A DNA stretch of 61,710 bases from Acidobacteriaceae bacterium (GTDB lineage Bacteria; Acidobacteriota; Terriglobia; Terriglobales; Acidobacteriaceae): the NCBI GenBank assembly GCA_003168355.1, contig PMSQ01000090.1:53149-114858 (forward strand), in the 5' to 3' direction. Both the position numbers and the translations under genes were made by a program. Positions 45,376-61,710 of the stretch are shown here, piece after piece. Every line of letters begins with the position of its first letter. Position 1 is the stretch's first letter. The notes under the pieces were generated by a model. That model was not told the origin of the DNA and did not search any database. It saw only the letters and a program-made list of their open reading frames with translations.

Positions 45376-46908
45376 TCAGCCCGCGACCGCCTTCTGCTTG
45401 GGCGCTGGCCTTCCTGCTAACCGCGCTTCCACTTCCTTCACCGCGCGCTGTGCCGCAAGAATGCCCCCATTGGTGGTCGACTCCGGGCCCTCGGAATCTG
45501 TATTAGCGAAAAACACGCGGTCCAGAGGTTGGCGCACCAGCGGCTGAACCTGTGTGTATAGCCCAGGCGTGGACATATACAAAGGATGTCCTCGCCGGTA
45601 AATGTGTACTTCGATCGGATCGACGTTCAATCCCGGCATCAGCTTCTGGAAGTCGCTCAGCACGTTGGCTGCGACCTTGCGCGCCCCGGCTTCGTTTAAC
45701 AGATAGCCCCGATTTTCTTCCGGCATCGGTGTGTAGCAGCTGAGAATGTTGAACTTTTGCTGATAGCCCGGTTGCTTCTGAATGACCCAGTCGGCAACAA
45801 TGACATCGGTAAAGGCGTTGCCGGGGCACCACGTGTCGTAGCCGTGATTGAACACCGGCTTATCGAAAATAAGATTCACCACCGGGTACGGAATGTAGCG
45901 AATCTGGTGCATGGCGTCGCTCTGTTTGTCGGGCAGACTGTCGACGATGCGGCGCGTGATGAACTTGGGCGTCGCCATGATCACGGCCTTGGCTGCAACC
46001 GTCTTCAATTCGCCTCCCAGCATGTAGGTCACCTGCACTTCTTCTTTTTCGGAGACTACAGCCACGGTGGTCGCGCCCGTTTGCATGCGGTCTTTGTGCG
46101 GCTGCAAAATTTCCGCCAGCTTTTTCGTGATCGCGCCCAACCCCCCGGGCCACGTGTAACGATCGTCTTTCGCGCTCTCTTCGGCCATGTCTTGCAATGC
46201 AAAAATCGCCACGCTTGCAGCCGTGTCCTCGCTGGCTGCGCCCCAGTTCGATGGCCCGAAGTTATCCCACCACTGCTTGAGTTCTTCCGGATACCCCTTC
46301 ACAAAATCGGAAAATGGTTTGTCGAGGAATTCTTTGCCGCCCTTCTCCACATCAATCGCGAGCATTTCCTTCTTGAACTTCTTGAAGCTCTCGCGAACCG
46401 GCGCAGGATAGGGCAGTTTATTGAGGCCGTCGCCCCAGGTATCCAGGACCAATTCACCCCGAATGATGCTCGCGTCTGAGTTATCGACCGGCAGCGGTTC
46501 CAGGCCGATTTCTTTCGAGAAGGCGTAAGCGTGTTCGTCCTTGGTTAAGAAGGCTGATCCTGTAGCATAGATGCTGCCCTCATACTCCATCCCATACGCA
46601 TTACCGCCCCAGTGCGGTTCTTTTTCCAACAGAAGAAAATCGCGGTGCCGCAAACGATAAGCCGCCGTCAACCCGCTGACGCCGCCGCCGACGATCACTA
46701 CGTCATGCCGCGCCGAGACCGGAGGTCGCGTGAACACTTTGCCGTCGCGCACTTGATGGCAGATTCGGTTGTCCTCACCATCTACATCTGCGCCGTGACT
46801 TTTCTGCGCATCGCCCGTCTGCGCCACCAGCGAAAGATCGATGGGACATCCCGCCGTTACCGCCCCCGCAACCACAAACTTGATGAAGTCCCTGCGATTT
46901 GCACTCAC
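45376..46908 (-). CDS. Tat-exported FAD-dependent amine-oxidase-like oxidoreductase
   Basis: This 510-aa protein has a twin-arginine signal (RRDFIKFVVAGAV) and a Cys after TAG (residue 21) that might be lipidated. The mature protein starts with the FAD-binding Rossmann motif DVVIVGGGVSGLTAAYRLRH, then LLEKEPHWGGNAYG, the order seen in flavin amine oxidases and phytoene-desaturase-like enzymes. A C-terminal RVFFANTDSEGPESTTNGGI segment completes the FAD site. It is the last gene of the Pot operon, its start overlapping potC by four bases. It may oxidise an amine, possibly a polyamine, on the periplasmic side. A catalytic Lys or Tyr could not be assigned, so the substrate is inference. Confidence 0.78.
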   Translation of the reverse strand: MSANRRDFIKFVVAGAVTAGCPIDLSLVAQTGDAQKSHGADVDGEDNRICHQVRDGKVFTRPPVSARHDVVIVGGGVSGLTAAYRLRHRDFLLLEKEPHWGGNAYGMEYEGSIYATGSAFLTKDEHAYAFSKEIGLEPLPVDNSDASIIRGELVLDTWGDGLNKLPYPAPVRESFKKFKKEMLAIDVEKGGKEFLDKPFSDFVKGYPEELKQWWDNFGPSNWGAASEDTAASVAIFALQDMAEESAKDDRYTWPGGLGAITKKLAEILQPHKDRMQTGATTVAVVSEKEEVQVTYMLGGELKTVAAKAVIMATPKFITRRIVDSLPDKQSDAMHQIRYIPYPVVNLIFDKPVFNHGYDTWCPGNAFTDVIVADWVIQKQPGYQQKFNILSCYTPMPEENRGYLLNEAGARKVAANVLSDFQKLMPGLNVDPIEVHIYRRGHPLYMSTPGLYTQVQPLVRQPLDRVFFANTDSEGPESTTNGGILAAQRAVKEVEARLAGRPAPKQKAVAG

Positions 46909-47729
46909 CTTGTTCCTCCCTCCGCGGCGCTTTCGCCGCGCACCCGCAAGCGGTACCAGAACACGATCGCCACCAGTGAAAACACGAAAATAATGGTCGA
47001 CACCGCGTTGATCTCGGGCGTGATGCCCCGCCGCAGCCGTCCCCAGATTTCCAGAGGCAGCGTGTTGTCGCGCCCGATCAGAAAGAAGCTCACCGCAATC
47101 TCGTCCATCGACAGTGTGAAGATCAGCAACGCCGCACCGATAATCGGCAGCTTTAGATTCGGCACGGTGATGCGCCAGAATGTCTGCCAGTAATTTGCTC
47201 CGAGATCAAGAGAAGCCTCTTCCTGCGCCCGGTCCAGCTTCTGCAACCCCGCGAAAACTTCCGTCGTTGCCACGGAGATCAGCGCGGTCCCATGTCCGAG
47301 AACAATCGTCATCAAGCTGAGCTTCGTTCCCATTACGTTGAACAACATGAGCAGCGAGAGCCCCGTGATAATTCCCGGAAGGATTAGCGGCAGCAGCACT
47401 AATCGCCGAAACAGCGTCTTCCCGGGAAATTGCGCTCGGTCCAGCGCCAGAGCCGCCGGCACTCCGAAGGTCAGCGAAATCACCATCGCCGCAAAAGCCA
47501 CCTCCAGGCTATTGAGCACCGAATCCCAGATCGGACGGTCCGCGAACAGCGTGCGATACCAGTCGAGCGTCAGATGATGCGGCGGGAATCCGCCCACACC
47601 CTCTCCATTGAACGAATAAAGGATAAGAACGGCAATCGGCAAATAGAGAAACGCAAACACCGCTGCGGAATGGACGAACAACCAGCGTGAGCCAGAGACA
47701 AGTTTTGCGTCGCTCACGAGAAGCTCCAT
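46905..47729 (-). CDS. potC: Spermidine/putrescine ABC transporter permease (PotC type)
   Basis: This 274-aa inner-membrane permease has six predicted helices. The opening FLYLPIAVLILYSFNGEGVG matches PotC. The EAA loop is EEASLDLGANYWQTFWRITV, which contacts the ATPase. LSMDEIAVSFFLIGRDNTLP is also typical. It overlaps potB by 16 bases upstream and the oxidoreductase by four downstream, so all are one transcript. Substrate class (polyamine or related amine) is set by similarity and by the PotD partner; exact substrate is unknown. Confidence 0.9.
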   Translation of the reverse strand: MELLVSDAKLVSGSRWLFVHSAAVFAFLYLPIAVLILYSFNGEGVGGFPPHHLTLDWYRTLFADRPIWDSVLNSLEVAFAAMVISLTFGVPAALALDRAQFPGKTLFRRLVLLPLILPGIITGLSLLMLFNVMGTKLSLMTIVLGHGTALISVATTEVFAGLQKLDRAQEEASLDLGANYWQTFWRITVPNLKLPIIGAALLIFTLSMDEIAVSFFLIGRDNTLPLEIWGRLRRGITPEINAVSTIIFVFSLVAIVFWYRLRVRGESAAEGGTR

Positions 47730-48562
47730 TTCTTTTCCAGGCGTTCCGAGAAAACCAGCAGGCTCACCACCAGCAGCAGCATGCAGAACGAAATTGCCGC
47801 GCCCAGGGGCCAGTTGTAAGCCGCGCCAAACAGGCTTACCACGATGTTTGAAATCATGATGCCGCTCGGCCCACCCAGCAGCAGCGGCGCAAGAAAATCA
47901 CCCAGGCTCAGCACGAAAGCGAATGTCGCTCCCGCAACTACGCCCGGAATCGAGAGCGGGAAAATCACCTTCCAGAACGTTTGCCCCGGAGTTGCGCCCA
48001 GATCATGCGATGCTTCCACCAGATTGCGCGGAATGTGCTCCAGCGCCGCGTAAATCGGCAGAAACGCGAACGGCGTATAAATATGGGTCAGCGTCAACAC
48101 CACGGCAAATGGGCTGTATAGCAGGAACTCCAGCGGATGCTTCGTCAGGTGCACATACTGCAGCAGAGTATTCAGCACGCCGGTCGAGCCCAGAATCGTC
48201 TTCCACGCATAAGCACGAACCAGGTAGCTGACCCACAGCGGGATGATCACCAACTGATACAGCAGATCTTTTTTATTGCCCGCATAAAAAGAAAGAAAAT
48301 AGGCCAGCGGATACCCCAGCACCAACGAGAAGATCGTCACCCGCGCGGCAATCCACATCGAGCGCAGCAGCGTCTGCCAGTAAACATCAACTCGCAAGAG
48401 CTCGCCGTAGTTCGCGAAATTCCACGAATGCACGATCGTCTGCGACTCAGACACCGACCAGAAGCTGTAGCAGAACATCAGCAAATACGGCAGCAGCAGA
48501 AATACCGTCACCCACACCAGAGGGGGCAACGTCACCGCCGCTTTGTAAGCTCGAGAAAACAT
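47714..48562 (-). CDS. potB: Spermidine/putrescine ABC transporter permease (PotB type)
   Basis: This 282-aa permease starts MFSRAYKAAVTLPPLVWVTV and has six helices. The EAA motif is LVEASHDLGATPGQTFWKVI, and GPSGIMISNIVVSLFGAAYN is typical of PotB. The true start is the ATG at 48562, which shares its A with the potA stop (TGATG). The open frame continues upstream to 48859 inside potA, but that extension is Arg/Gly-rich and unconserved. With PotC it forms the membrane channel. Confidence 0.9.
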   Translation of the reverse strand: MFSRAYKAAVTLPPLVWVTVFLLLPYLLMFCYSFWSVSESQTIVHSWNFANYGELLRVDVYWQTLLRSMWIAARVTIFSLVLGYPLAYFLSFYAGNKKDLLYQLVIIPLWVSYLVRAYAWKTILGSTGVLNTLLQYVHLTKHPLEFLLYSPFAVVLTLTHIYTPFAFLPIYAALEHIPRNLVEASHDLGATPGQTFWKVIFPLSIPGVVAGATFAFVLSLGDFLAPLLLGGPSGIMISNIVVSLFGAAYNWPLGAAISFCMLLLVVSLLVFSERLEKKWSFS

Positions 48563-49671
48563 CAGATTCTTTCCGGAGACTCGCGCACCAGCCCTGCATC
48601 GGTCGGAGAGAATTCCAGTTCGACCGCGTCCAGAGGTCCGCCGCTGCCCGGAGTCCGCACCACCAGCATCATTCCATCGCCGCATTCCACGCGAATCAAC
48701 TCCGTAGCCCCATGAAATGCCTGGTGTCGAACTGTCCCGCGAACGCGCACTCTCCCGGCCGTCGCCACATTCCCCGCGGCCAGCCGAATATTTTCCGGGC
48801 GCAGCGAAAACAGAGCCGGACCATCCGGAAGCGCGGCCGGCCAAGTCAGGAGACCGCAACGCACCACTCCTCCCCGCACTTCGCCCTTCAACAGATTCGT
48901 GTGTCCAATAAACTGCGCCGCATAAGCGGTTGCAGGCCGGCCATAAATTTCCCGCGGCGTGGCCACCTGCTCCAGTTCACCCGACCGCAGCAATGCGATC
49001 CGGTCCGACATCACCATCGCCTCTTCCTGATCGTGGGTGACGAAGATGAACGAAATGCCAACCTCGCGCTGCAGTGACTTCAGTTCCACCTGCATCTGTC
49101 GCCGCAAGTTCGCGTCCAGCGCGGAAAGCGGCTCGTCCAGCAGCAGCAGCCGCGGTCGGTTCACCAGCGCCCGCGCCAGCGCGATCCGCTGCTGTTGTCC
49201 TCCGCTGATTCTCGAGGGCTTCGACTTCGCGTGCGCCGACATCTTCACCTTCTCCAGTGCTTCCCCCACCCGGGATACAATCTCCGCCTCGGGCCTTTTC
49301 GCCACACGCAATCCGTACGCCACGTTTTGTTCCACGGTAAGGTGAGGAAACAAGGCATAACTCTGGAACACCGTGTTCACGCGGCGACGGTAAGGCGGTT
49401 GGCGGTCCAATCGCTCCTCACCCATCCACAACTCGCCCGCACTCGCCGTCTCAAAGCCCGCGATGATCCGGAGCAGCGTCGTCTTCCCTGACCCGCTTTC
49501 GCCGAGAATGGTGAGAAACTCTCCTTCGGCAACATCAAGAGAAATATCCCGCAACACAACATTCTTGCCAAAACTCTTGGCGACATTCTGAATCCTGAGC
49601 AACGGTGCTCTCCCCGCAGCACCCTCAGCTGTAGTCCTCACAACAATCTCGGAATTGGTCGTCAATCCCAC
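48562..49671 (-). CDS. potA: Spermidine/putrescine ABC transporter ATPase (PotA type)
   Basis: This 369-aa ATPase of the import complex has Walker A GESGSGKTT near 57, Q-loop VFQSYALFPHLT, signature ISGGQQQR, Walker B LLLLDEPLSALD and H-loop FVTHDQEEA. A C-terminal TOBE-like domain (LLKGEVRGGVVRCGLLTWPA, then FSLRPENIRLA) matches PotA/CysA-type ATPases. The start is a GTG at 49671. It lies 56 bases after potD and its stop overlaps the potB start. Confidence 0.92.
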   Translation of the reverse strand: MGLTTNSEIVVRTTAEGAAGRAPLLRIQNVAKSFGKNVVLRDISLDVAEGEFLTILGESGSGKTTLLRIIAGFETASAGELWMGEERLDRQPPYRRRVNTVFQSYALFPHLTVEQNVAYGLRVAKRPEAEIVSRVGEALEKVKMSAHAKSKPSRISGGQQQRIALARALVNRPRLLLLDEPLSALDANLRRQMQVELKSLQREVGISFIFVTHDQEEAMVMSDRIALLRSGELEQVATPREIYGRPATAYAAQFIGHTNLLKGEVRGGVVRCGLLTWPAALPDGPALFSLRPENIRLAAGNVATAGRVRVRGTVRHQAFHGATELIRVECGDGMMLVVRTPGSGGPLDAVELEFSPTDAGLVRESPERI

Positions 49672-49727: not shown

Positions 49728-50792
49728 CTATTGCGCGGCTTTCACTTCGTTCCAAATCTCGTTGTACTTGGCGCGCCGCGGCACGTTCTGCCAGAAATAA
49801 AGCCGCTTTTGGTAGTTGTCCACGTCATCCAGATGCAGGTTTTTCACTTCTTCCGGTGTCATGAACCGCGCTGCCTGCGGGTTCGCCGGCGTGTATCCGG
49901 TCACGTCCGTCACCTTCTTCTGGGTTTGCGCCTCAATCATGTACTCCAGAAATTCGTGGGCCAGATCCTTATTCTCGCTCCCCGCCGTAATCATCAGGTG
50001 ATCGATCCATCCGGTTGTGTTCTCCTTCGGAATCGTTTCACCCACCGGGAAGTTGATCTTGCGCAGTTGATTAGTCATCAGCGGCCATCCCATGGCCGCT
50101 ACCACTTCGTGATTCTGAAAAAGATTCGTCAACTCCCCACCCGTCGACCACATCTTGCGGATATTCGGTTTCAATTCCAGCAACTTCTTTTTCACCGCCT
50201 CAAGCTGTTCGTCGGTCAAGTTGTAAAGCTGCGACGGATCGGGTTTGTCGTAGCCCAGAACCTGAGCCGCCAGGTAGACCGTCGAGAGATCGTCCCACAC
50301 CGAAATCCTTCCTTTGTACTTCGGGTCCCACAGCACGTTCCAGCTATCCGGAGCCTGCGCAAAAACCGTGGCGTCGTAAATCAGCGGGTCCGGCCCCCAC
50401 ATGAACGGAACTCCATACACCTGGCCCTTCACCCGCACCAGCGGCAGGGAAGTGAGCTGCGGAGAGAGTTGTCCATAACCCGGAATCTTCGATAAATCCA
50501 GCGGAGCCGCCAGGCCCGCCGCTGCAATCGACGTGGCCACATCGCTCGAGGGCGAGATTACGTCGTAGTTTCCGGCGCTGCCTCCGCGGAGCTTGGCCAC
50601 CAGTTCATCGCTCGATCCCATGTAGGACGCCGAAACTTTGCAATGATGCTGCTCTTCGAAAGCCTTGACGAATGAAGGATCCGCATAGCCTTCCCACACC
50701 AGCAGATTTAGTGTGGGAATTTTCTTCGAGCACGAAACGGCGAACACCGTCACTGTCAGGAGTACCAACCAAACCGATAGTCGTGCCTTCAT
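49728..50792 (-). CDS. potD: Spermidine/putrescine-binding lipoprotein (PotD type)
   Basis: This 354-aa periplasmic binding protein has a lipoprotein signal ending VSCSKK. The mature part starts LNLLVWEGYADPSFVKAFEE, typical of PotD/PotF. Also present are YDVISPSSDVATSIAAAGL, VYGVPFMWGPDPLIYDATVF, WNVLWDPKYKGRISVWDD, and GWPLMTNQLR with VGETIPKENTTGWIDHLMIT. These cover the ligand cleft, including the aromatic and acidic residues that hold amines. GGAGG sits five bases before the ATG. It is the first transporter gene, 25 bases after the regulator. Putrescine, spermidine or related amine binding is inferred. Confidence 0.9.
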   Translation of the reverse strand: MKARLSVWLVLLTVTVFAVSCSKKIPTLNLLVWEGYADPSFVKAFEEQHHCKVSASYMGSSDELVAKLRGGSAGNYDVISPSSDVATSIAAAGLAAPLDLSKIPGYGQLSPQLTSLPLVRVKGQVYGVPFMWGPDPLIYDATVFAQAPDSWNVLWDPKYKGRISVWDDLSTVYLAAQVLGYDKPDPSQLYNLTDEQLEAVKKKLLELKPNIRKMWSTGGELTNLFQNHEVVAAMGWPLMTNQLRKINFPVGETIPKENTTGWIDHLMITAGSENKDLAHEFLEYMIEAQTQKKVTDVTGYTPANPQAARFMTPEEVKNLHLDDVDNYQKRLYFWQNVPRRAKYNEIWNEVKAAQ

Positions 50793-50817: not shown

Positions 50818-51618
50818 CTAGAACGTGGGCGGCGTATTTACCCACAGCACCCAGGTTTCCGCCCGCCGTGGATTTTTCCAGTGATGCGGGGTCGCGCTCT
50901 CAAAATAAAAGCTGTCGCCAACCTTCAGCCGGTATTCTTCTTTTTCTAGCGTAATCGCCAGCTCTCCGCGCAACACGTAGAGAAACTCCTCTCCCTCGTG
51001 CGAGTAAGAGTCGCCGCTGCCTGCTCCGGGCGCCACCCGAAACAGATGCGGCTCCATCACCGTGTTTCCCCAGGCCAGCAACTCCATCCGTACACCGGGG
51101 CCGGCTTCCAGCACTTTTCTTTGTTTCGGACGAACCTGCCGGCTCCTTGCGCCGGTCGCGTCAAAAAAATCCAGAATATTGGTTTTGTAAAATCGCGCCA
51201 GCTTGCGCAGCGTGCCCACCGACCCGCTCATCTGCGACCGCTCCAGCGCACTCAGGAATCCCACCGAGATGCCCACGGTTCGCGCCACCTGCGCCAGGGA
51301 CAGTTTCCGCTTGGCCCGCAACTGCCGCAAATGCGAGCCAATCGCCCCCGCGCTCCCATCCGCCGCCGGGCGCACCCGCCCTTCCCGCCGCAGCAGTTCG
51401 ACAATCGCAGGCGCGTTCAGCCCGCGCACTTTCCTTAAGAATCGCGCCCGCTTCAACAGTTGGAGGTCATCCGCTGTGTAGAGCCGGTACTTGCTCTCCG
51501 TGCGCCGCGGCCGCGTAAGTCCCAGGCTTTCCCACGACCGGATCACCGACGGCGAGACCCCCACCCGCCGCGCCACATCTCCGATCTTCAAGTAAGGTCC
51601 CGAGGCGGTTGAATTCAT
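50818..51618 (-). CDS. MerR-XRE-cupin fusion transcriptional regulator
   Basis: This 266-aa protein has three domains: a MerR-type winged HTH (about 9-80; LKIGDVARRVGVSPSVIRSW, YRLYTADDLQLLKRARF), an XRE-type HTH (about 96-152; LRQLRAKRKLSLAQVARTVG, ISVGFLSALERSQMSGSVGT), and a C-terminal cupin (about 178-262; SYSHEGEEFLYVLRGELAIT, then SFYFESATPHHWKNP). XRE plus cupin is the architecture of E. coli PuuR, the putrescine-responsive repressor; the added MerR domain is unusual. It is the first gene of the Pot operon and divergent from the TonB receptor gene, so it probably controls both by sensing a polyamine through the cupin. Confidence 0.9.
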   Translation of the reverse strand: MNSTASGPYLKIGDVARRVGVSPSVIRSWESLGLTRPRRTESKYRLYTADDLQLLKRARFLRKVRGLNAPAIVELLRREGRVRPAADGSAGAIGSHLRQLRAKRKLSLAQVARTVGISVGFLSALERSQMSGSVGTLRKLARFYKTNILDFFDATGARSRQVRPKQRKVLEAGPGVRMELLAWGNTVMEPHLFRVAPGAGSGDSYSHEGEEFLYVLRGELAITLEKEEYRLKVGDSFYFESATPHHWKNPRRAETWVLWVNTPPTF

Positions 51619-51697
51619 GACCTGTGGTCGCCCGATAAGAATTTTCTATGCAAGGCAGCGCTTTTTTTATCCTTGACAGCTTGCCACGCACTTCTCT

Positions 51698-51722
51698 AAC
51701 CTTGCGGGATTATAGCAAGGTT
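51698..51722. promoter_or_regulatory. Inverted repeat AACCTTGC-N9-GCAAGGTT, candidate operator
   Basis: Perfect 8-bp arms at 51698-51705 and 51715-51722 flank a 9-base spacer. The repeat sits in the 164-base divergent gap between the regulator (51618) and the TonB receptor start (51783). A further half-site GCAAGG occurs at 51650-51655, nearer the regulator. TTGACA at 51673-51678 could be a -35 element for the plus strand, although no good -10 lies at the right spacing. Confidence 0.55.
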
Positions 51723-51782
51723 GTGGCTGGACACAAGCTGTCGTTTTCGAGAAAAATTCTGCCGAAGATGCCTGGAGGTTCC

Positions 51783-54700
51783 ATGCCGTCACTGCGAGCC
51801 CGCTCGACCATGATGTGTCTGGGAACGGTTAGCTTCGTCATCGCGATCTCTCTTGTCGTCCCTACACTGCTTTGCGCGCAGGGTACCGGCGGCCGCATCC
51901 TGGGCCGCGTCGCCGATCCTTCGGGTGCCGTGATCGCTCATGTCAAGGTGACCGCAACCAACGAAGCTACGGGAGTGAGCCGCGGCGCCGAAACAAACGA
52001 TAGCGGAGACTACGTCTTTCCCGAAGTTCCCGTAGGTGTGTATACGCTCGACTTCGAGCTAACTGGTTTCAAAAAGGATCTTCGCCACGGCGTGACGCTC
52101 GAACTCAACCAGATCATCACCCTCAATATGCTGATGCAGATCGGCCAGACGCAGGAAGTCGTCGATGTGACCTCGGAAGCGCCGCTCGTCGATACCACCA
52201 GCACTCAACTCGGCGCCGTGGTCGATGACCGCACTGTGAGCCAGCTTCCTCTCAACTCTCGCGACACCTATCAATTCTTGCAGTTGCAGCCCGGTGTCAT
52301 GTCGACCGTCGGTTCTAACAACAGTCTCATATACGGCAGCGACAGCGCGGGCGCGGTTTCGGTGAATGGCGGCCGCGGGCGTTCCAACAATTTCAGCGTC
52401 AACGGCGGCGATGCGAATGACCTTTTCGTAAACTTGCCCACGGTGCAGCCCACCCCCGATAGCATTCAGGAATTCCGCGTCATCACCAATACTTTCGACG
52501 CTGAGTACGGACGCAATTCCGGTTCCGTAATCAACGTCGTGACCAAGTCCGGCACCAATCAGCTTCACGGCGACATTTATGAGTTTTTTCGCAATAAAGT
52601 CCTCAACGCTTCCAGCTACTGCTTCTCTCCTCCATGTGTTAAGCCCCAATTCAACCAGAATCAGTTCGGAGGAACCTTCGGCGGCCCTATCAAGAAAGAC
52701 CACACTTTCTTTTTTACATCCTATGAAGGCCGTCGCATCCGCCAGGGCATTCCGTCGCCTGTCGTCACTGTGCCCAGTGCTCAGGAAAGGCCGAGTGCCA
52801 CGCAGTCTTTCGCAGACTTTTCTGACCTAGGCAATCCTTTCGGGGGGGATCTCGCCAACTCGGCCCTGCTTTCTAACCGGCCCGGCTGTCAGGCCGCAGT
52901 GACCGCCGCGGGCGGGGGCATCCTGTCGGATGGCGTTGCCTACTCAAGTATTTTCCCCAATAACCAGATTCCCCTGGCCTGCATGGACGCGACCGCCGTA
53001 GACTTGCTTCAGTTCGTGCCTACTCCAACCACTGGCAACACTATCGAGACCGTTCCCACAGAAGCCATTCGCGGCGACCAACTCACCGTTAAAGTCGATC
53101 ACAAGATCAACGACAAGCAAAACCTCAGCATCTATTACTACTTTAATGACGACCGCACCCTGCAACCCTTTTCGTTTTTCGAACTGGCGGGCGCGAATGT
53201 TCCCGGCTTCGGTAGCATTGTTGCCGAACGTTTTCAGCAGTGGAACATCACCCACGATTGGACCCTCAGCAATAGCACGGTTAACGAATTTCACTTCACC
53301 TACAACCGTGAGGCTCAGTTGACGTTCCAGCACCCGCAGAATACGGAGCTTGTCCAGGATTCCTGTCCTTCGGCGCCATCCTGGCTCACCAGCGTCACCG
53401 GCGCGGTGCCGTGTTTCTCCGATGGCACGCCGGGCAATGCGACTGGCATTCACCCCGGCCTTGGTCCGACTCGTGAAGGTCTGCCATTTATTTCTGTGTC
53501 TGGCGGCTTTAGTCTGGGCAATAACTCCGAAGGAGAACTTCCCCAGGTCGGGAACTCGTTCCAATTTGCCGACAATCTCACGAAAGTTGTAGGCAACCAT
53601 ACCCTCAAGTTTGGTGTCGATGTTCGCCGCCAGCGCTTTGACCAGACCCTTTACTTCAACGTTTCCGGGGAACAGCTATTCTTTGGCGGTGGGCAGAACG
53701 ACACAGTCGCCAGCAACCCGGACGGATCGTCAAATCTATATCCCAACTACCTGCTCGGCCTTCCCGATCAATTTGGAGAAGGATCGGCCCAGTCTGAACA
53801 TGTGCGCAATACCGGCTTCTATCTGTTTGCGCAGGACAGTTGGAAGGTCAAACCGAATCTCACTCTGAACTACGGTTTGCGCTGGGAACTTAATACGCCG
53901 CTTGCCGATATCAGCCAACACGTGCAGACCTTCCGTCCCGGGCAAAGCAGCACCGTCTATCCCTGCGAGAATACAGCCAACACAGATTGTTCTTCGCAGA
54001 CGCCGATTGGACTGGTCGTCCCCGGCGACTCCGGTATTCAGCCAGGTCTGACTCAGACTTACTACAAGGCCTTCGCTCCGCGCATCGGGATCGCCTGGAG
54101 TCCCGGCAATTCCGGCAAAACCAGCTTTCGCGCCGGCTTCGGCATGTTCTACAACCCCATCGAGCAACTCGTACTCGAACAGTTCGGTGCCGAACCTCCT
54201 TTCGGCGGGAGCATTTTCCTCTCGGAGACTCAGTTCAACACTCCGTTTGTCACCCAGGACGCCAGCACAACCTACCCCAATCCTTTCAACGGCTTCATCA
54301 CTCCGACGAAAGGTACCGCCCAGGATTGGGCGCTCTTTGAACCCATTCTGCTCTACGGCGATTTCCAGCCGCACATGCGGGCGCAATATTCCGACCAGTA
54401 CAACTTCACTATTCAACGGGAGCTCTCGAAAGATACGAAGCTCGAGATCGCGTACGTTGGCTCCCAGGGTCATCGCTTGCTCGCCACGCATGACGTGAAC
54501 TACTCGAATCCGCAGACCTGCGTTGACATCAGCAATATCGCTGCGGCGAACCCCAATGCCGTCACGGATGGTTTCGGAGATCAGTCAACCTGCGGCCAGT
54601 TCGCGGAGGATGCCGAGTTTCAGGTGACCGTGCCCGCGGGCTACCCCGGTGGCTTCCATATGCCCAACGGTTCGGTTGTGCAGGGGACCGGACAAACTCT

Positions 54701-55577
54701 GAATTTTGTTGGCCTGCGACCTTATTCGTCGCCGCAGTGCGATCCTACCACCGGCAATGGCTGCCCGCTCGCTTCTGGCGTTCCCGTTTTCACCAGCATC
54801 TTCGCCCAGGACACTATCGCCACTTCCGCTTACAACTCGTTGCAAGTTTCCGTCGACAAACGTTTCGCTCGCGGATTGCAGTTCACGGCCGCCTACACCT
54901 ATAGCAAGTCGCTGGACGAAGCCTCCAGCTTCGAAGGTATCCTCAATCCGCTTCCTGGCGCCAATAATCGCTCACTTTCGCTCTTCGACGCGCGCCATCG
55001 CATCGTCTTCAGTTATTACTGGGAATTGCCAACCCGCAAGTTCACTGGCTTCACGGGCAAGGTTCTCGATGGATGGGCTTTCTCCGGTATAACGACTTAC
55101 CAGACCGGATTCCCCATCCGCATCACTTCCGATGCGGATAACGAGCTCATGAACAGCTTCGACTTCGAATTGCCCGGCGAGCCGGACCAGTTGGGTAAGT
55201 TCACCACTCAGAAACCCCAGAAGAACAACAATTATTATTTCAATCCGCAATTGTTCACGGAAAACGCCACTGATCCCCTCTGCGGCGGCAGTCCCTATCC
55301 GGGTTGCTATGATCCGAGCCTGTTCGGTCGCGTCGGAAACGCGCCCCGTACCATCTGCTGTGGTCCCGGAATTAGCGATACCGATATCGCCATCGAGAAA
55401 ACGATTCCGGTCAAGGAGAAGATGCATTTCGAGTTCCGGGCGGAGCTGTTCAACCTTTTCAACCATACGCAGTTTTTTAACCCGGACGGCAATAGTACCG
55501 ACGGCTCGCAATTTGGCCAGGTTACCCAAACGAAGGATCCGCGTCTGGTGCAGTTCGCTTTGAAGTTCTTCTTCTAG
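51783..55577 (+). CDS. TonB-dependent receptor, Oar-like, linked to the polyamine cluster
   Basis: This outer-membrane receptor of about 1264 aa starts at ATG 51783, fixed by GGAGG five bases upstream; an open extension to 51648 lies in the promoter. A signal peptide (VSFVIAISLVVPTLLCAQ) precedes a carboxypeptidase-regulatory-like domain (GRVADPSGAVIAHVKVTATN; YVFPEVPVGVYTLDFELTGF). The plug follows with VNGGRGRSNNFSVNGGDAND and VQPTPDSIQEFRVITNTFDA, then the 22-strand-like barrel, ending ALKFFF. It differs widely from the receptor at 31912. Its place at the head of the catabolic genes and opposite the Pot operon suggests uptake of an amine-containing compound, perhaps larger than a free polyamine. 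Confidence 0.9.
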   Translation: MPSLRARSTMMCLGTVSFVIAISLVVPTLLCAQGTGGRILGRVADPSGAVIAHVKVTATNEATGVSRGAETNDSGDYVFPEVPVGVYTLDFELTGFKKDLRHGVTLELNQIITLNMLMQIGQTQEVVDVTSEAPLVDTTSTQLGAVVDDRTVSQLPLNSRDTYQFLQLQPGVMSTVGSNNSLIYGSDSAGAVSVNGGRGRSNNFSVNGGDANDLFVNLPTVQPTPDSIQEFRVITNTFDAEYGRNSGSVINVVTKSGTNQLHGDIYEFFRNKVLNASSYCFSPPCVKPQFNQNQFGGTFGGPIKKDHTFFFTSYEGRRIRQGIPSPVVTVPSAQERPSATQSFADFSDLGNPFGGDLANSALLSNRPGCQAAVTAAGGGILSDGVAYSSIFPNNQIPLACMDATAVDLLQFVPTPTTGNTIETVPTEAIRGDQLTVKVDHKINDKQNLSIYYYFNDDRTLQPFSFFELAGANVPGFGSIVAERFQQWNITHDWTLSNSTVNEFHFTYNREAQLTFQHPQNTELVQDSCPSAPSWLTSVTGAVPCFSDGTPGNATGIHPGLGPTREGLPFISVSGGFSLGNNSEGELPQVGNSFQFADNLTKVVGNHTLKFGVDVRRQRFDQTLYFNVSGEQLFFGGGQNDTVASNPDGSSNLYPNYLLGLPDQFGEGSAQSEHVRNTGFYLFAQDSWKVKPNLTLNYGLRWELNTPLADISQHVQTFRPGQSSTVYPCENTANTDCSSQTPIGLVVPGDSGIQPGLTQTYYKAFAPRIGIAWSPGNSGKTSFRAGFGMFYNPIEQLVLEQFGAEPPFGGSIFLSETQFNTPFVTQDASTTYPNPFNGFITPTKGTAQDWALFEPILLYGDFQPHMRAQYSDQYNFTIQRELSKDTKLEIAYVGSQGHRLLATHDVNYSNPQTCVDISNIAAANPNAVTDGFGDQSTCGQFAEDAEFQVTVPAGYPGGFHMPNGSVVQGTGQTLNFVGLRPYSSPQCDPTTGNGCPLASGVPVFTSIFAQDTIATSAYNSLQVSVDKRFARGLQFTAAYTYSKSLDEASSFEGILNPLPGANNRSLSLFDARHRIVFSYYWELPTRKFTGFTGKVLDGWAFSGITTYQTGFPIRITSDADNELMNSFDFELPGEPDQLGKFTTQKPQKNNNYYFNPQLFTENATDPLCGGSPYPGCYDPSLFGRVGNAPRTICCGPGISDTDIAIEKTIPVKEKMHFEFRAELFNLFNHTQFFNPDGNSTDGSQFGQVTQTKDPRLVQFALKFFF

Positions 55578-55699: not shown

Positions 55700-57079
55700 A
55701 TGTATCCCGATCTGCAGAAAGAACTCGACACGTTCGAGCGCCGTACGCCCAAATCCGCCGAGGCGCACAAGAAAAACCTCAAACGCATTCCACTGGGAGT
55801 AGCCAGCAACTATCGCCACTACGATCCCTGGCCCATCTTCGTGAAAGAAGCCAGCGGCAGCAAGTTCCGCGACCTCGACGGCAACGAATACATCGATCAC
55901 AACCTCACCTTCGGTGCGCTCATGGCCGGACACTGCCATCCCGCCGTGATGAAGGCCGTCGAGAAACGTCTCTCCACCGGCACCATGTTCGGCATGCCTC
56001 ACGACATGGAATGGGAACTCGCCGAAGAAATCTGCAACCGCTTTCCGGTCGAGATGGTTCGCTTCGGCAACAGCGGTACGGAAGCCACGATGCACGCCAT
56101 TCGCCTGGCCCGCGCCGCCACCGGCCGCGACAAGATCGTGAAATTCGAAGGCGCTTACCACGGCCTGCATGATTCCGCTCTCGTCAGCGTCAAGCCTCAC
56201 GCTCCCGACTTCGGCGATATCGATAACCCCATCTCCGTCCCCGGTGGACTCGGCGTGCCCAAGTCAGCGGTGGCAAACGTCACCATCGCCACCTTCAACG
56301 ATCTCGCTACCGTTGATCGCCGCTTCAAAGAGAACCCTGGCGAAATAGCGGCGATTATTCTTGAACCCATCCTCATGAACGTCGGCCTCTGCCTGCCGCA
56401 ACCCGGCTTCCTGAAAGGGCTTCGCGAAATCGCCACGAAAAACGGCGCGCTCCTGATCTTCGACGAAGTAAAAACCGGTGCAAAACTCGGTTGGGGCGGC
56501 GCCAGTGAATACTTCAACGTTCATCCCGACATGATCTGCCTCGCTAAATCAATCGGCGGAGGCTTCCCGCTTGCCGTCTTCGGCGCCAGCAAGTCGGTGA
56601 TGGACCTCATCTCGCAACACAAAGTCTTCCACGGCGGCACCTACAACACCAACCCGGTGTCGATGGCGGCTGGACTCGCCACATTCCGCGAAGTTCTCAC
56701 TCGCGCCAACTATGCTCATGTCGACAAACTCGGCAAGAAGCTGGCGGATGGATATCGGAAGACGATCGCCAAAGTCGGCCTGCAAGCCTACATTGCGCAA
56801 GCCGGCGCCAATGGCGCGCTGATGTTTTATCCGAAGGAAATTCGCAACTACCGCGACTGGACCACGGTCGATATTGACCTCTGGCGGCACTACTGGTTCG
56901 CTATGGTGAATCGCGGCGTGATGGCGCAACCCTATTGGTGGGACGAGCAATGGACAATTTCAGTCCAGCACACCGAGGCGGATATCGATAAGCATCTATC
57001 TGCTTTCGACGATATCGCCGCCTCGCTCGCAAAAGCCCAGCAGGAGCGCGTGGGCCAACCCGCGTTGGCCGCACATTAG
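55700..57079 (+). CDS. Class III aminotransferase, glutamate-1-semialdehyde aminomutase-like
   Basis: This 459-aa PLP enzyme has FRDLDGNEYIDHNLTFGALM, the PLP loop FGNSGTEATMHAIRLARAAT, AYHGLHDSALVSV, EPILMNVGLC, DEVKTGAKLGWGG (Asp contacting the pyridine N) and LAKSIGGGFPLAVFG with the Schiff-base Lys. GGAG precedes the ATG. The pattern is of the HemL-like group, which includes many amino-acid and amine transaminases. Next to an amino-acid permease, an aldehyde dehydrogenase and a GABA-type aminotransferase, it more likely acts in amine catabolism than in tetrapyrrole synthesis. The amino donor is unknown. Confidence 0.88.
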   Translation: MYPDLQKELDTFERRTPKSAEAHKKNLKRIPLGVASNYRHYDPWPIFVKEASGSKFRDLDGNEYIDHNLTFGALMAGHCHPAVMKAVEKRLSTGTMFGMPHDMEWELAEEICNRFPVEMVRFGNSGTEATMHAIRLARAATGRDKIVKFEGAYHGLHDSALVSVKPHAPDFGDIDNPISVPGGLGVPKSAVANVTIATFNDLATVDRRFKENPGEIAAIILEPILMNVGLCLPQPGFLKGLREIATKNGALLIFDEVKTGAKLGWGGASEYFNVHPDMICLAKSIGGGFPLAVFGASKSVMDLISQHKVFHGGTYNTNPVSMAAGLATFREVLTRANYAHVDKLGKKLADGYRKTIAKVGLQAYIAQAGANGALMFYPKEIRNYRDWTTVDIDLWRHYWFAMVNRGVMAQPYWWDEQWTISVQHTEADIDKHLSAFDDIAASLAKAQQERVGQPALAAH

Positions 57080-57092
57080 CAATGTTCATGTG

Positions 57093-57151: not shown

Positions 57152-57200
57152 AGGTTTGTCATTCCGAACCGGGCGAAGCCCGGTGAGGAACCTGCTGTTT
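57152..57200 (+). repeat. Acidobacterial-type intergenic repeat
   Basis: The stretch beginning TTTGTCATTCCGAACC, then GGGCGAAGCCCGG and GAGGAACCTGCTGT, reads like the GTCATTCCGAGCGAAGCGAGGAA-type repeat found between genes in many Acidobacteria. It contains an internal hairpin (CCGGGC..GCCCGG). The frame of the permease gene runs through it by chance, so its start was placed after it. Confidence 0.5.
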
Positions 57201-57218
57201 GGCAGCCCCCGAGAAGCT

Positions 57219-58667
57219 TTGTCCACCACCACCCAACCCGCCGTTCAGCCCCACTTGATCCGCGCCCTCGGGCGCCGCGATCTCGTTCTTCTTTTCGTGG
57301 TCGCCGTCTTCAACCTGAACGTTGTCCCCTCCATCGCGGCCAACGGTGGGGTTACCATCTGGCTCTGGATCATCTCGCTTCTGCTTTTCTTCTGGCCGCA
57401 AGGCATCGCCGTCATCGAGCTTGCTCATCGCTATCCAGGAGAAGGCGGCGTCTATTTGTGGGCGAAGGAAGTTTTCGGCGACTTCCACGGATTCCTCTCC
57501 GGCTGGTGTTACTGGACCAACAATATGCTCTACGTGCCGACCGTTATGCTCTACTTTGTCGGCGTCTCCGTCTTTGCCCTGGGCTCCGGGCACGCCGGGT
57601 TGGCCGACAATAAGAATTTTGCCATGGCCGCATCTCTGGCCTTACTCGCGCTTCTTACTATCCTGAATATCGTTGGGCTGGGAGTTGGGAAGTGGCTCAA
57701 CAATCTCGGGGCGATTGGGACATTTCTGGCCGCGGCTGTTCTCATCGGATTAGGAGTAACAGTGTGGTCGCGATTTGGGACAACGGTGACCGCGGCGGAT
57801 TTTCGTATCCCACGGGACCCGCGGTTCGTCCTCAATTCGTTCGGCGTGATCTGCTTTGGGCTTGTCGGGCTTGAGCTCGCGTCCGTGATGGGCGACGAGA
57901 TTCAGGATCCGCAAAAAACCCTACCCGGCGCTGTCGCCTGGGGCGGCATACTATCCGGCGCACTCTACATCGGCGCAACTTTGACTCTCTTGGTTGCGGT
58001 GGGCAAAAACGACATCAATGTCCTGCAGGGAATCATGCAAGCCGTCAGTCATATGGCCGGCAAGGTAGGCGTGGCCTGGATCATTACGCCATTTGCGCTC
58101 ATGCTGAGCCTCTCGATCGCAGGGATCGGCTCGGCTTGGATGGGCGGTTCGGCGCGAATTCCCTTTGTCGCCGGCCTCGATTCCTACATGCCGTCGTGGT
58201 TGGGAAGAGTGCATCCGAAGTATGCGACTCCTTACGCAGCGCTGATCGTGCAGGCGGTGGTCTCGCTGATATTGATAGTCATCAATTTTTACGCTTCAGG
58301 AGGCGTGCAGGAAACTTTCCAGACGATGCTGTCGCTCGCGGTTGTCTTGCAGTTGGTTCCTTTCTTGTACGTGTTTGCCGCGCTTCTGCAATTTGCTCGC
58401 AAGAAAGATCTGGGAGATGGACGCTACGGCCGCGGTACTCTGGTGTTTGCCGGGTCATGTGGATTTCTGACTACGCTTCTGGGAATCGTGCTGGCATTTT
58501 TTCCCGCCAAGCAAATCACTTCCGTGTGGAAGTATGAAGCGAAGATGTTCGGATTCACGCTGTTCTTTCTGGCGCTGGCCGCATTTTTCTTTTTTGTCTA
58601 CGGCCGCCACAAAGTTCTGCAACCAGAGATCGGGAAGGGCACGACTTCAGTTCTCGGCTTGCCCTGA
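57219..58667 (+). CDS. APC-superfamily amino acid/amine permease
   Basis: This permease of about 482 aa has around 12 hydrophobic helices. The N-terminal part LIRALGRRDLVLLFVVAVFN, FNLNVVPSIAANGGVTIW and ELAHRYPGEGGVYLWAKEVF (with the conserved Gly-rich TM2-TM3 loop) is typical of the amino acid-polyamine-organocation family. The TTG at 57219 is a tentative start; the frame is open to 57156 through the intergenic repeat. It may import or exchange GABA, glutamate or putrescine. The place between transaminase and aldehyde dehydrogenase genes recalls PuuP in the E. coli putrescine pathway. Confidence 0.85.
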   Translation: MSTTTQPAVQPHLIRALGRRDLVLLFVVAVFNLNVVPSIAANGGVTIWLWIISLLLFFWPQGIAVIELAHRYPGEGGVYLWAKEVFGDFHGFLSGWCYWTNNMLYVPTVMLYFVGVSVFALGSGHAGLADNKNFAMAASLALLALLTILNIVGLGVGKWLNNLGAIGTFLAAAVLIGLGVTVWSRFGTTVTAADFRIPRDPRFVLNSFGVICFGLVGLELASVMGDEIQDPQKTLPGAVAWGGILSGALYIGATLTLLVAVGKNDINVLQGIMQAVSHMAGKVGVAWIITPFALMLSLSIAGIGSAWMGGSARIPFVAGLDSYMPSWLGRVHPKYATPYAALIVQAVVSLILIVINFYASGGVQETFQTMLSLAVVLQLVPFLYVFAALLQFARKKDLGDGRYGRGTLVFAGSCGFLTTLLGIVLAFFPAKQITSVWKYEAKMFGFTLFFLALAAFFFFVYGRHKVLQPEIGKGTTSVLGLP

Positions 58668-58737: not shown

Positions 58738-58793
58738 CGCAGCGCTTTAGCGCTGCGATAAGAATCGCAAATTTGATAGCGGCTTTAGCCGCT
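58738..58793 (+). repeat. Two palindromic hairpins with TTTA loops
   Basis: CGCAGCGC-TTTA-GCGCTGCG (58738-58757) and AGCGGC-TTTA-GCCGCT (58778-58793) are perfect small hairpins 20 bases apart, 25 bases upstream of the aldehyde dehydrogenase start. The GCGCTTTAGCGC type is frequent in acidobacterial intergenic DNA. They could affect mRNA stability or termination between the permease and dehydrogenase genes. Confidence 0.55.
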
Positions 58794-58818
58794 GAGGTAA
58801 GGCAGGAGGATCACAAAC

Positions 58819-60312
58819 ATGCCCGGCGGAATCACAACCGAAGTTCCAAGAGAAGTCCGCACCTATCAGATGTATATCAACGGCGAATGGGTCGCGAGCA
58901 AGTCCAGCAAGACGTTTCCCGTCTACGATCCCTCCACCGAGGAAGTCATCGCCCAAGTCCCTGACGCCGGCCCGGACGACATCAACCGTGCCGTTGCCGC
59001 CGCTAAAGCCGCTTTCGAGGAAGGTCCGTGGGCAAGCACCACCGCACAGGAACGGGGGCGCGTACTCTTTCGCCTCGCAGAAAAAGTTCGCGCCAATCTC
59101 GCAGCGCTCGCCGAACTCGAATGCCGCAACACCGGCAAGCCCATCGTCGAAGCCGAATTTGACATCAACGATGCCGCCACCTGCTTCGAATACTACGGTG
59201 GCCTCGCCACCAAAGTCGTCGGTTACGTCAACCCGGTTCCCGATAATGCGATGTCCCTCTCGCTTAAAGAGCCAGTCGGCATCGCTGGACAAATCATTCC
59301 CTGGAACTATCCGCTCCTCATGGCCGCCTGGAAACTTGCGCCAGCCATTGCTGCAGGCTGCACTTGCGTCCTCAAGCCCGCCGAGCAAACTCCGCTCACC
59401 GCTCTCGAGTTAGCAAAGTATTTTGCCGATTGTGGCCTGCCGCCGGGCGTGGTCAATATCGTCACCGGCTTCGGAGAAAGCTGCGGCGCTCCGCTCGTCC
59501 GGCATCCCGACGTGAATAAGATCGCCTTCACCGGCAACGCTGCCGTCGGAAAGATCATTGTGAAGCAAGCCGCCGACACCGTGAAGCGCGTCACTCTCGA
59601 ACTTGGTGGAAAGTCGCCCAACATTTTCTTCGCCGACGCCGATTTCGAAGCTGCCATCGACGGCGCGCTCTTCGGCGTCTTCATCAATCAAGGCGAGGTC
59701 TGCTCCGCCGGAAGCCGCATCCTGGTGCAGAAGTCGATCTATAAGAACTTCGTGGAAGCCATGACGGAGAAAGCGAAGAAGATCAAGCTTGGTCCGCCGT
59801 TGGATCGGGAGACTAAGATGGGTCCACTCGTCAGCAAAGAACAATATGACCGCGTCAACTCTTATATCGAGATCGGCAAGAAAGAAGCCAAGCTCGCATC
59901 TGGTGGTGGACGCCCCGAAAAAATAGGCAAAGGCTATTACGTGCAGCCCACGATTTTTTCCGACGTGACCAACAATGCCCGCATCGCCCGCGAAGAAATT
60001 TTCGGCCCCGTCGCCGCCGTGATTCCGTTCGACGACGAAAAAGACGCGCTCAAGATCGCAAATGATTCACCCTATGGCTTGGCGGCCGCAGTCTGGACCC
60101 GCGACATTTTCAAGGCCCTGCGCGCCGTGAAAGCCTTGCGCGCAGGAATCGTCTGGGTGAATCATATGCAGCCAACTTATGTCGAAGCTCCCTGGGGCGG
60201 CTACAAACAATCCGGCTTCGGCCGTGAGCTTGGCCCGTGGGGCATCGAAGAGTATCTCGAAACCAAGCAGGTCTACATCAATCTGAATGAATCTCCGATC
60301 GGCTGGTACTGA
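58819..60312 (+). CDS. Aldehyde dehydrogenase (betaine/4-aminobutyraldehyde type)
   Basis: This 497-aa NAD(P)-dependent dehydrogenase has MYINGEWVASKSSKTFPVYD, IIPWNYPLLMAAWKLAPAIA (NAD binding and Asn), FTGNAAVGKIIV, LELGGKSPNIFFADAD (general-base Glu) and FINQGEVCSAGSRILV (catalytic Cys). It ends in an EEYLETKQVYINL-like tail. The wording is closest to betaine-aldehyde and gamma-aminobutyraldehyde dehydrogenases. GGAGG lies about 9 bases before the ATG. In this cluster it would oxidise 4-aminobutanal (from putrescine) to GABA, the step before the next gene. Confidence 0.92.
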   Translation: MPGGITTEVPREVRTYQMYINGEWVASKSSKTFPVYDPSTEEVIAQVPDAGPDDINRAVAAAKAAFEEGPWASTTAQERGRVLFRLAEKVRANLAALAELECRNTGKPIVEAEFDINDAATCFEYYGGLATKVVGYVNPVPDNAMSLSLKEPVGIAGQIIPWNYPLLMAAWKLAPAIAAGCTCVLKPAEQTPLTALELAKYFADCGLPPGVVNIVTGFGESCGAPLVRHPDVNKIAFTGNAAVGKIIVKQAADTVKRVTLELGGKSPNIFFADADFEAAIDGALFGVFINQGEVCSAGSRILVQKSIYKNFVEAMTEKAKKIKLGPPLDRETKMGPLVSKEQYDRVNSYIEIGKKEAKLASGGGRPEKIGKGYYVQPTIFSDVTNNARIAREEIFGPVAAVIPFDDEKDALKIANDSPYGLAAAVWTRDIFKALRAVKALRAGIVWVNHMQPTYVEAPWGGYKQSGFGRELGPWGIEEYLETKQVYINLNESPIGWY

Positions 60313-60484
60313 TGAAGGAATTTTTCAAACATTGTCATCCTGAGCGAGGATCGATCGGAGCCTGCACTGAGGGAGCGGATGCGATCGAATGTGCGCCCAA
60401 GCGCGAAGATCAACCGCAGTCGAAGGACCCCTGTACTTTGTGCAGCGCCACTGCCGATTCAGGGAATTCTCACGAGAAACCGAT
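60313..60484. other. Spacer with degenerate intergenic-repeat text
   Basis: The stretch TTGTCATCCTGAGCGAGG (from 60333) and AGTCGAAGGACCCCTGTAC (from 60418) resembles broken copies of the GTCATCCTGAGCG...GAAGGATCCCTG repeat seen in Acidobacteria and other metagenome members. It separates the two catabolic genes; the ATG at 60485 follows without a strong ribosome-binding site. Confidence 0.4.
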
Positions 60485-61710
60485 ATGAGCACGATTCGCA
60501 TCAAAACTCCCATCCCGGGCCCCAACTCCCAATCCCTCTCGGCCCGCCGCGCCCAAGCCGTGCCCCGTGGCCTTTCTCACGGCACGCCCATCTATGTGGC
60601 CAAGGCCGAAGACGCATGGCTTGAAGACGTCGACGGCAACCGCTACATCGACTTCGCCGGTGGCATCGGCTGCGCCAATGCCGGCCATCGTCAGGAAGCC
60701 GTCGTCGATGCCATCCGCGGCCAGCTCGACAAATTCCTCCACACCTGCGTCCAGGTCACGCCCTACGAGGGCTACATCCGGCTCGCCGAGCGCATGAACG
60801 AGATCACGCCTGGCAGGTTCGCCAAGAAAACTTTGTTCGTGAACAGTGGCGCGGAAGCCGTCGAGAATGCGGTCAAAGTTGCCCGCGCGTATACCAAACG
60901 CCCCGCGATCATTGCCTTCGAAGACGCCTTCCATGGCCGCACCATGATGACGCTCGCCCTCACCAGCAAGACGCATCCTTATAAAGCCGGATTCGCACCG
61001 TTTCCCGGTGAGGTTTATCGCATTCCGTTCGCCTATTGCTATCGCTGCTCGTACAACCTCAAATATCCTTCCTGCGATCTCTACTGCGCGCGCCAACTTG
61101 AAGATACTTTCAAACGTGTTGTAGCCAACGAAGAAGTCGCCGCAGTGATTGCCGAGCCGGTAATGGGCGAAGGCGGATTCATCGCTCCGCCTCCGGACTA
61201 TTTCAAAGTCCTCATCGACCTCTGCCACAAACACGGAGTGCTTTTCATCGCCGATGAAATTCAATCCGGCTTCGGGCGCACAGGTGCGATGTTTGCCAGC
61301 GAGCGCTACGGAATCGAACCCGATATTTTAGTTACCGCGAAATCGCTAGGCGGTGGCCTGCCGCTCGCTGCCGTCACGGGCCGCACTGAAATCATGGACG
61401 CGCCCGCTCCCGGCGGACTCGGCGGCACTTTCGCCGGAAATCCACTTTCTTGCGCTGCGGCTCTAGCCGTGCTCGATTTGTTTGAAAATGAAAAGTTGTT
61501 GGCTCGTGCCAATGCATTAGGTGAGCATTTCCAGCGCCGCGCCCACGAATGGCAGCGCCGCTGGTCCATCGTCGGTGACGTGCGTGGCCTCGGCGGTATG
61601 CAAGCCATCGAACTGGTGAAGTCGCAGGAAACCAAAACTCCTGCCGCGGACGAGACTAAACAAATCACCAAATACTGCTACGAGCACGGCCTGATCACGA
61701 TCACCGCCGG
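60485..61710 (+). CDS. gabT: 4-aminobutyrate-type aminotransferase (3' end outside window)
   Basis: The frame is open from ATG 60485 to the window edge (about 408 codons); only the C-terminus is missing. The protein reads as a class III aminotransferase: DVDGNRYIDFAGGIGCANAG, FVNSGAEAVENAVKVARAYT (PLP phosphate loop), FHGRTMMTLALTSK, EPVMGEGGFIAPPPDYF, ADEIQSGFGRTG (PLP Asp) and TAKSLGGGLPLAAVTGR with the catalytic Lys. These match GabT/PuuE. It would convert GABA and 2-oxoglutarate to succinate semialdehyde and glutamate, after the aldehyde dehydrogenase. A succinate semialdehyde dehydrogenase may lie beyond the window. Confidence 0.9.
   Translation, partial: MSTIRIKTPIPGPNSQSLSARRAQAVPRGLSHGTPIYVAKAEDAWLEDVDGNRYIDFAGGIGCANAGHRQEAVVDAIRGQLDKFLHTCVQVTPYEGYIRLAERMNEITPGRFAKKTLFVNSGAEAVENAVKVARAYTKRPAIIAFEDAFHGRTMMTLALTSKTHPYKAGFAPFPGEVYRIPFAYCYRCSYNLKYPSCDLYCARQLEDTFKRVVANEEVAAVIAEPVMGEGGFIAPPPDYFKVLIDLCHKHGVLFIADEIQSGFGRTGAMFASERYGIEPDILVTAKSLGGGLPLAAVTGRTEIMDAPAPGGLGGTFAGNPLSCAAALAVLDLFENEKLLARANALGEHFQRRAHEWQRRWSIVGDVRGLGGMQAIELVKSQETKTPAADETKQITKYCYEHGLITITA

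Follow-up and report, generated by a model that had tools for sequence, protein, structure and literature searches.

Towards the end of a 61,710-nucleotide stretch of DNA from an Acidobacteriaceae bacterium (G000:C117:53149-114858, here called the window; genome 5.3 Mb, 213 contigs), two arms of genes diverge from a palindrome that serves both as one control element. The minus arm encodes a regulator (REG), a transporter of PotD, PotA, PotB and PotC type, and a flavoenzyme (OXI) with a twin-arginine translocation (Tat) signal; the plus arm encodes an Oar-like TonB-type receptor (TBDT), two class III aminotransferases (AT1 and AT2), an APC permease and an aldehyde dehydrogenase (ALDH). An earlier note on this DNA had claimed such a divergent cluster, and all the genes it named were found where it had put them. 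The palindrome is new in this analysis, and its extra copies outline a regulon; both the gene set and the control site held in common are clear. There is good support for an ordered, co-regulated amine module that includes its own receptor, and a conserved, jointly controlled gene set for amine capture and breakdown appears to exist in many soil and peat Acidobacteriota. From gene content, gene order, the operator and the exchange of transporters among relatives, we hypothesize, with fair probability, that the cluster is a regulon for scavenging and degrading polyamine-type amines, in which the exact molecule, the repression, the receptor's cargo and the enzyme reactions would be as proposed below.

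The relatives compared were the best 80 of 105 loci from a single scan with the regulator as query, and are close kin rather than independent cases; by regulator, the nearest named ones are metagenome-assembled genomes of Acidobacteriaceae and Candidatus Sulfotelmatobacter. Window proteins were placed on these loci by tblastn, with a minimum identity required for each gene, and since many contigs stop inside the cluster, each count is restricted to loci with enough reach. Loci L036 and L066 are one contig: the gap alignment of 82 sequences includes both, the PotD alignment of 59 rows possibly also both, and counts over the 80 loci use L066, not L036.

One operator between the two arms

The divergent gap, aligned over 82 sequences, contains a nearly invariant block, the palindrome AACCTTGC-N9-GCAAGGTT. 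The window's copy has 0 mismatches (shuffled sequences average 0.23 matches at up to 3 mismatches), and under a longer pattern allowing at most 3 mismatches it is the sole site in its own genome. Across the 80 loci the operator is exact in 71, has one mismatch in 5, two in 1 and three in 1, and 2 lack upstream sequence; at no more than 2 mismatches it is thus present in 77 of the 78 loci having such sequence. A scan of 43 genome handles, of which G084 and G412 look like one genome, found a site in all 43, and the reversed-pattern control found 0. On the REG strand the operator spacer carries TATAAT in 77 sites (equal to the number of main sites at up to 2 mismatches), and on the receptor strand TTGAC[AG] stands upstream of the operator in 75 of 77; the operator and the -10 box of each promoter thus overlap. 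Such a placement would be as expected of a repressor site, and REG is the candidate protein to bind it.

Further matches with 2-3 mismatches (L052, L059, L068, L074, L075, L082, L110, L120) have no TATAAT core and were treated as chance, and no system gene was matched in the stretches fetched around 3-mismatch sites in G433, G413, G417 and G411. One genome (G404; L187 and L188) has two receptor genes, each behind its own exact operator, which suggests a duplicated receptor arm.

The earlier note had proposed a check of gene order in other Acidobacteriota; when this was run, the order of the receptor arm was kept in every one of the 80 loci reaching far enough. The receptor is present and divergent from REG in 70 of 70 loci, and AT1 (52/52), the APC permease (47/47), ALDH (44/44) and AT2 (42/42) are equally constant. 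Because the operator lies inside the stretch that opens at 51648, and because a conserved GGAGG-N4-ATG favours 51783, the receptor is taken to start at the latter. It has features of TonB-dependent receptors, a CarboxypepD_reg domain and an outer-membrane barrel; Pfam reports no PF07715 plug domain, a plug-like stretch being visible by eye only. SusC/Oar-type receptor loci resemble it in placing CarboxypepD_reg and a large barrel beside catabolic genes; here the receptor is tied to amine genes, and no SusD-like partner was recognised. Another large Oar-like receptor gene occupies window positions 31912-36105 on the minus strand.

This genome has many Oar-like receptors (77 matching pieces, the gene itself included; the best-scoring paralogue is 38% identical), and the arms might accordingly be neighbouring, unrelated units, with the receptor importing something else. 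Its adjacent, divergent position in every testable locus and the operator over its -10 box argue against this, as do the 11 REG kin beyond the window's family, 6 of which have receptor-like genes nearby (GabT-like genes are near 8; the fetched stretches are short in some cases). We strongly disfavour this explanation, and give it very little probability.

REG is a fusion of a MerR helix-turn-helix (HTH), an HTH_3 and a C-terminal cupin domain. Its best NCBIfam model is PuuR (80 bits, under the cut-off of 211), and the MerR domain is additional to that family; at E<=1e-50, 15 of 396 genomes of the phylum, its own included, have full-length kin. The Puu pathway shares the HTH and cupin half of REG, an APC importer, an aldehyde dehydrogenase and GabT-like steps; it differs in that REG has the extra MerR domain and that the cluster showed no recognisable gamma-glutamyl ligase or hydrolase. 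Among the distant REG kin (L039-L048, L019) no operator was found at up to 3 mismatches; of the matches with 4 mismatches, one (in L046) overlaps the start of REG and was treated as chance.

Transporters and oxidases of the regulator arm

The earlier note had described the minus arm as one overlapping operon, which is corrected here in its details: PotA and PotB overlap through TGATG, the PotC/OXI junction is GTGA rather than ATGA, and gaps of 25 bases (REG to PotD) and 56 bases (PotD to PotA) separate the genes around PotD. The PotB frame, open from 48859, is too long, and the TGATG overlap moves its start to 48562; PotB and PotC overlap by 16 bases. The make-up is that of a Pot-type operon, with a substrate-binding protein (SBP), a TOBE ATPase and two permeases together, scoring below the equivalog cut-offs for PotA, PotB, PotC and PotD (381 vs 482, 195 vs 348, 173 vs 326 and 108 vs 582). 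Of the 13 residues that we take to be the ligand contacts of E. coli PotD, the window's protein keeps nine (W34, Y37, S83, D168, W229, W255, D257, Y293 and Q327), each retained in 56-59 of 59 aligned rows.

Among 59 loci with at least 3.4 kb beyond REG, two or more Pot genes are present in 47, an APC permease gene (APC2) takes their place in 7, none has both and 5 have neither. Counting shorter loci, APC2 occurs in nine (L055, L058, L088, L100, L109, L111, L119, L122 and L128), in seven of which a second operator copy with 0-2 mismatches lies near APC2 or its accompanying small SnoaL-like gene; L088 has none, and the contig of L055 stops at APC2. A Pot fragment is kept beside APC2 in L088 and L109. 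Three of the five loci with neither transporter are explained (L106, L112, L123): two of these genomes have an operon of cytochrome, SpdH-like and APC2 genes on another contig, and one has PotDABC, each behind an operator. In G403, a one-mismatch operator ends 8 bases ahead of PotD of a detached PotDABC. A tree of REG (quick method, 40 of 79 inner branches weak) requires at least 9 changes among Pot, APC2 and neither; the exchange of transporters is therefore probably recurrent.

Of 48 loci extending 9 kb or more on the minus-arm side, Pot genes number three or more in 39 and OXI is found in 22; OXI without PotC occurs in 0 of the 80 loci. These counts do not support an assembly that depends on Pot and a periplasmic oxidase, as the earlier note had it: 12 of 59 loci have no Pot, only 22 of 48 have the oxidase, and in the fetched stretches L146-L149 kin of the oxidase stand without Pot. 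Relatives in which the receptor or the oxidase is unlinked to Pot had been named there as grounds for refutation and, taken to the letter, such relatives exist. As read from these comparisons, Pot and the window's oxidase are exchangeable parts around a core formed by the receptor, the permease and the catabolic enzymes. Where Pot is missing from the locus, there is in most cases either a substitute or a Pot set elsewhere behind a copy of the same operator, which strengthens the idea of a shared substrate that the genes would serve.

OXI has features of SpdH-type enzymes: a Tat-type start (RR[DE]FI in all 22 alignment rows), an FAD Rossmann fold and an amine oxidase family match, with partial similarity to SpdH and MAO. 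Identity with SpdH proper was ruled out, the protein having 510 residues against about 620 and local matches only. OXI-like proteins at E<=1e-40 are rare, occurring in 6 of 396 genomes, its own included. In a distant Acidobacteriota family (L149:3230-9811), genes for an Oar-like receptor, an OXI-like protein and an amidohydrolase are adjacent, and the stretch is without Pot genes.

Operator copies stand ahead of SpdH-like genes in G398, G401, G432 and G429 (assigned by Pfam for the G398 and G429 proteins, by eye for G401 and the partial G432 gene). In G398 and G401 the operator precedes an off-locus operon of a NapC/NirT-type cytochrome c, an SpdH-like enzyme, a SnoaL-like protein and APC2 (domains scanned in G398 only); in G432, also off-locus, it precedes a cytochrome c followed by what by eye is the beginning of an SpdH-like gene. 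In G429 (L190:8713-14669) one operator copy is followed by a tandem array of three SpdH-like genes (two were scanned), which adjoins a gene for a molybdopterin-binding oxidase. Of 14 plasmid records that match the family of the L190 enzyme, three, all from Sphingobium, name the protein spermidine dehydrogenase (42-43% identity over 98%), a name that is annotation only. In L185:2157-5301 and L186:8937-12120 an SpdH-like enzyme is paired with a NapC/NirT-type cytochrome c that carries an FGE-sulfatase-like domain (scanned in L185), a possible electron route for the oxidase. The window's own genome has an SpdH-like gene (L005, on G000:C97; 63% identical to one from L190) without an operator copy.

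Substrate and proposed pathway

We propose that REG probably represses both arms through the palindrome over the -10 boxes of the divergent promoters, and that an amine or its product would release it. The TonB-type receptor would bring the amine or a conjugate of it through the outer membrane, and PotDABC (in related genomes an APC permease) would carry the amine across the inner membrane; a Tat-exported flavin amine oxidase (OXI or, elsewhere, an SpdH-like enzyme with a NapC-type cytochrome c) could cut it in the periplasm. Inside the cell, AT1 and ALDH would convert diamines and aminoaldehydes to gamma-aminobutyrate (GABA) or beta-alanine, AT2 and a further enzyme, AT3, would deaminate these, and a semialdehyde dehydrogenase dependent on coenzyme A (CoA) would take the C3 branch to acetyl-CoA.

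A polyamine, a small molecule rich in nitrogen, is the likely substrate because of the PotD pocket, the operator-linked SpdH-like genes, the operons joining Pot-like and ALDH genes, and the neighbours of haloarchaeal AT1 kin. Plasmid-borne kin of the binding protein (41-44% identity) sit in operons of SBP, ATPase, two permeases and ALDH in all 3 Alphaproteobacteria records inspected; the R. leguminosarum and Methylobacterium operons include gabT, the Ruegeria one does not. Two haloarchaeal plasmids have AT1 kin (43-45%) near genes of the glutamine synthetase family and class II deacetylases; in one of them a binding-protein ABC transporter is also close by, in the other a sodium symporter and a glutamine amidotransferase. 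In another Acidobacteriota family, a cluster not far from a glutamine synthetase gene combines PotD, PotA and PotB (45-50%) with two class III aminotransferases, one of them an AT1 relative (47%). The earlier note's interpretation is thus supported in part, by the common control element and by several such pointers to polyamines, and not in its dependence on Pot and the oxidase.

Several known systems are comparable. E. coli PotABCD and YdcSTUV-PatD share the binding protein, ATPase and two permeases and an aminoaldehyde dehydrogenase linked to the transporter. Ruegeria potFGHI is arranged in the same manner (PMC10130141). The present cluster differs from all three in its added outer-membrane receptor, Tat oxidase and MerR-HTH-cupin regulator, and in scores under the equivalog cut-offs. 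According to PMC9397018, spermidine and spermine cleavage in P. aeruginosa gives C4 (GABA) and C3 (beta-alanine) branches, which the C3 and C4 ends of the cluster would match. Its spu, SpdH, KauB and bau genes have in common with the cluster spermidine cleavage, aminoaldehyde oxidation, the route from beta-alanine to acetyl-CoA and class III aminotransferases; here AT1 is HemL-like, regulator, operator and receptor are different, and OXI is shorter than SpdH.

Alternatively, the regulon might serve omega- or beta-amino acids (GABA, beta-alanine and their peptides), with ALDH and the oxidase as side functions. The GabT-type AT2, the CoA-dependent semialdehyde dehydrogenase and the GadC-like permease fit this, and in distant REG loci a GabT-like gene is accompanied, without Pot, by SSF (L041, L046) or APC (L039) permeases. 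Against it stand the aminoaldehyde-type ALDH in every testable locus, the acidic and aromatic pocket of PotD, and the SpdH-like genes behind operator copies, and we judge it quite improbable.

The cargo might also be an amide-bound amine, an acylated or phenolic polyamine conjugate that the receptor imports, from which a secreted amidohydrolase frees the amine for Pot or the permease. A secreted-looking Amidohydro_3 gene (signal peptide by eye) directly follows REG in 26 of the 69 loci that extend 2 kb or more, the distant family with adjacent receptor, OXI-like and amidohydrolase genes has no Pot in that stretch, and free polyamines, thought to cross the outer membrane via porins, should not need a large receptor. 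The gene is, however, missing at this place in the window and in 43 of the 69 loci, and its family is broad, the best PDB kin being uncharacterised hydrolases; this reading, which overlaps the polyamine regulon preferred here, seems somewhat unlikely.

Several observations weigh against the polyamine regulon. No transporter, oxidase or aldehyde dehydrogenase in the window passes a curated polyamine cut-off, and AT1 is closest to HemL, not to known putrescine transaminases. Four PotD substitutions (T35E, E36G, Y85D, E171T) are near-fixed (58-59 of 59 rows), so that the ligand may not be spermidine. Besides being shorter than SpdH, OXI is a member of the superfamily only; its AlphaFold model, built from the window copy and 21 of 22 copies (L063 was dropped for unknown residues), is poor (mean predicted local distance difference test score 57.8), and Foldseek matches, at template modelling (TM) scores of about 0.3, name only the flavin amine oxidase superfamily. 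An OXI-like gene also lies beside a GH20 hexosaminidase gene (L146:7130-11037, in G023, a genome without a PotD match). For two loci, L120 and L127, neither transporter, no PotD elsewhere and no operator-linked replacement were found, APC2 not having been searched genome-wide. Succinate-semialdehyde dehydrogenase was not recognised in the cluster. Finally, free polyamines should have no need of the receptor; a polyamine gate of this kind would be the bold part of the proposal.

In the literature searched, mostly open literature seen in part, no report of a TonB receptor for polyamines was found. We put forward tentatively, as possible rather than probable, that a new MerR-HTH-cupin regulator controls, via a single palindromic operator, a dedicated receptor for polyamines or their conjugates together with interchangeable Pot/APC carriers and interchangeable Tat amine oxidases. 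If true, a receptor-fed polyamine route would partly explain the organic nitrogen supply of soil and peat Acidobacteriota, which are known mostly from metagenomes, and would link one branch of their large family of receptors to a class of substrate; as one DNA element outlines the regulon, the substrate can be decided from one regulator.

Coordinates and plus-arm genes

Table 1. Features of the cluster, in window positions.
Feature	Position	Strand	Basis
OXI, Tat-signal FAD amine-oxidase-superfamily enzyme, 510 residues, GTG start	45376..46908	-	PF01593, 88.5 bits
PotC-like permease	46905..47729	-	best model PotC, 172.6 bits, under cut-off 326
PotB-like permease, corrected start	47714..48562	-	best model PotB, 195.1 bits, under cut-off 348; TGATG overlap
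PotA-like ATPase with TOBE_2	48562..49671	-	TIGR01187, 350.8 bits vs cut-off 355.6; PotA equivalog 381 vs 482
PotD-like substrate-binding protein, lipoprotein-like start (by eye)	49728..50792	-	YdcS, PotD and PotF models all under cut-off
REG, MerR-HTH_3-cupin regulator	50818..51618	-	domain scan
Receptor promoter TTGACA-N18-TAACCT	51673..51702	+	conserved block
Operator palindrome AACCTTGCGGGATTATAGCAAGGTT	51698..51722	.	gap alignment and pattern scans; carries TATAAT on REG strand
Regulator/Pot promoter TTGTGT-N16-TATAAT	51709..51736	-	sequence
TBDT, Oar-like receptor, CarboxypepD_reg and PF25183 barrel	51783..55577	+	domain scan; frame open from 51648
AT1, HemL-like class III aminotransferase	55700..57079	+	HemL, 390.6 bits vs cut-off 527.3
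APC-family permease, GadC-like	57156..58667	+	PF13520; best model 156.4 bits vs cut-off 650
ALDH, betaine/amino-aldehyde dehydrogenase type	58819..60312	+	BADH, 576.5 bits vs cut-off 668.6
AT2, GabT-like class III aminotransferase	60389..61710, beyond window end	+	likely start 60485

AT1 fails the HemL model TIGR00713 (Table 1) and passes the broader subfamily NF000818 (413.5 vs 398); that it is the genome's heme enzyme was ruled out, the HemL on C93 scoring 603.8. The best PDB kin of ALDH are betaine- and amino-aldehyde dehydrogenases. On the full contig AT2 is complete apart from two unknown residues, and its orthologue in L037, the copy scored, passes the GABA transaminase model TIGR00700 (575.9 vs 506.65).

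After AT2, the plus arm continues in relatives with a (methyl)malonate-semialdehyde dehydrogenase (MMSDH; L036, L037, L038 and L188, and partly L086, L092, L101 and L120), whose L037 copy passes TIGR01722 (550.7 vs 448.5). L188 has the start of a further aminotransferase after MMSDH. In the window's genome both genes are on C210, where MMSDH is in two pieces, 79% and 74% identical. A frame that by eye looks CHAT-like seems to span the end of C117 and the start of C210 (L002, L204), between AT2 and MMSDH, an arrangement unlike that of L036.

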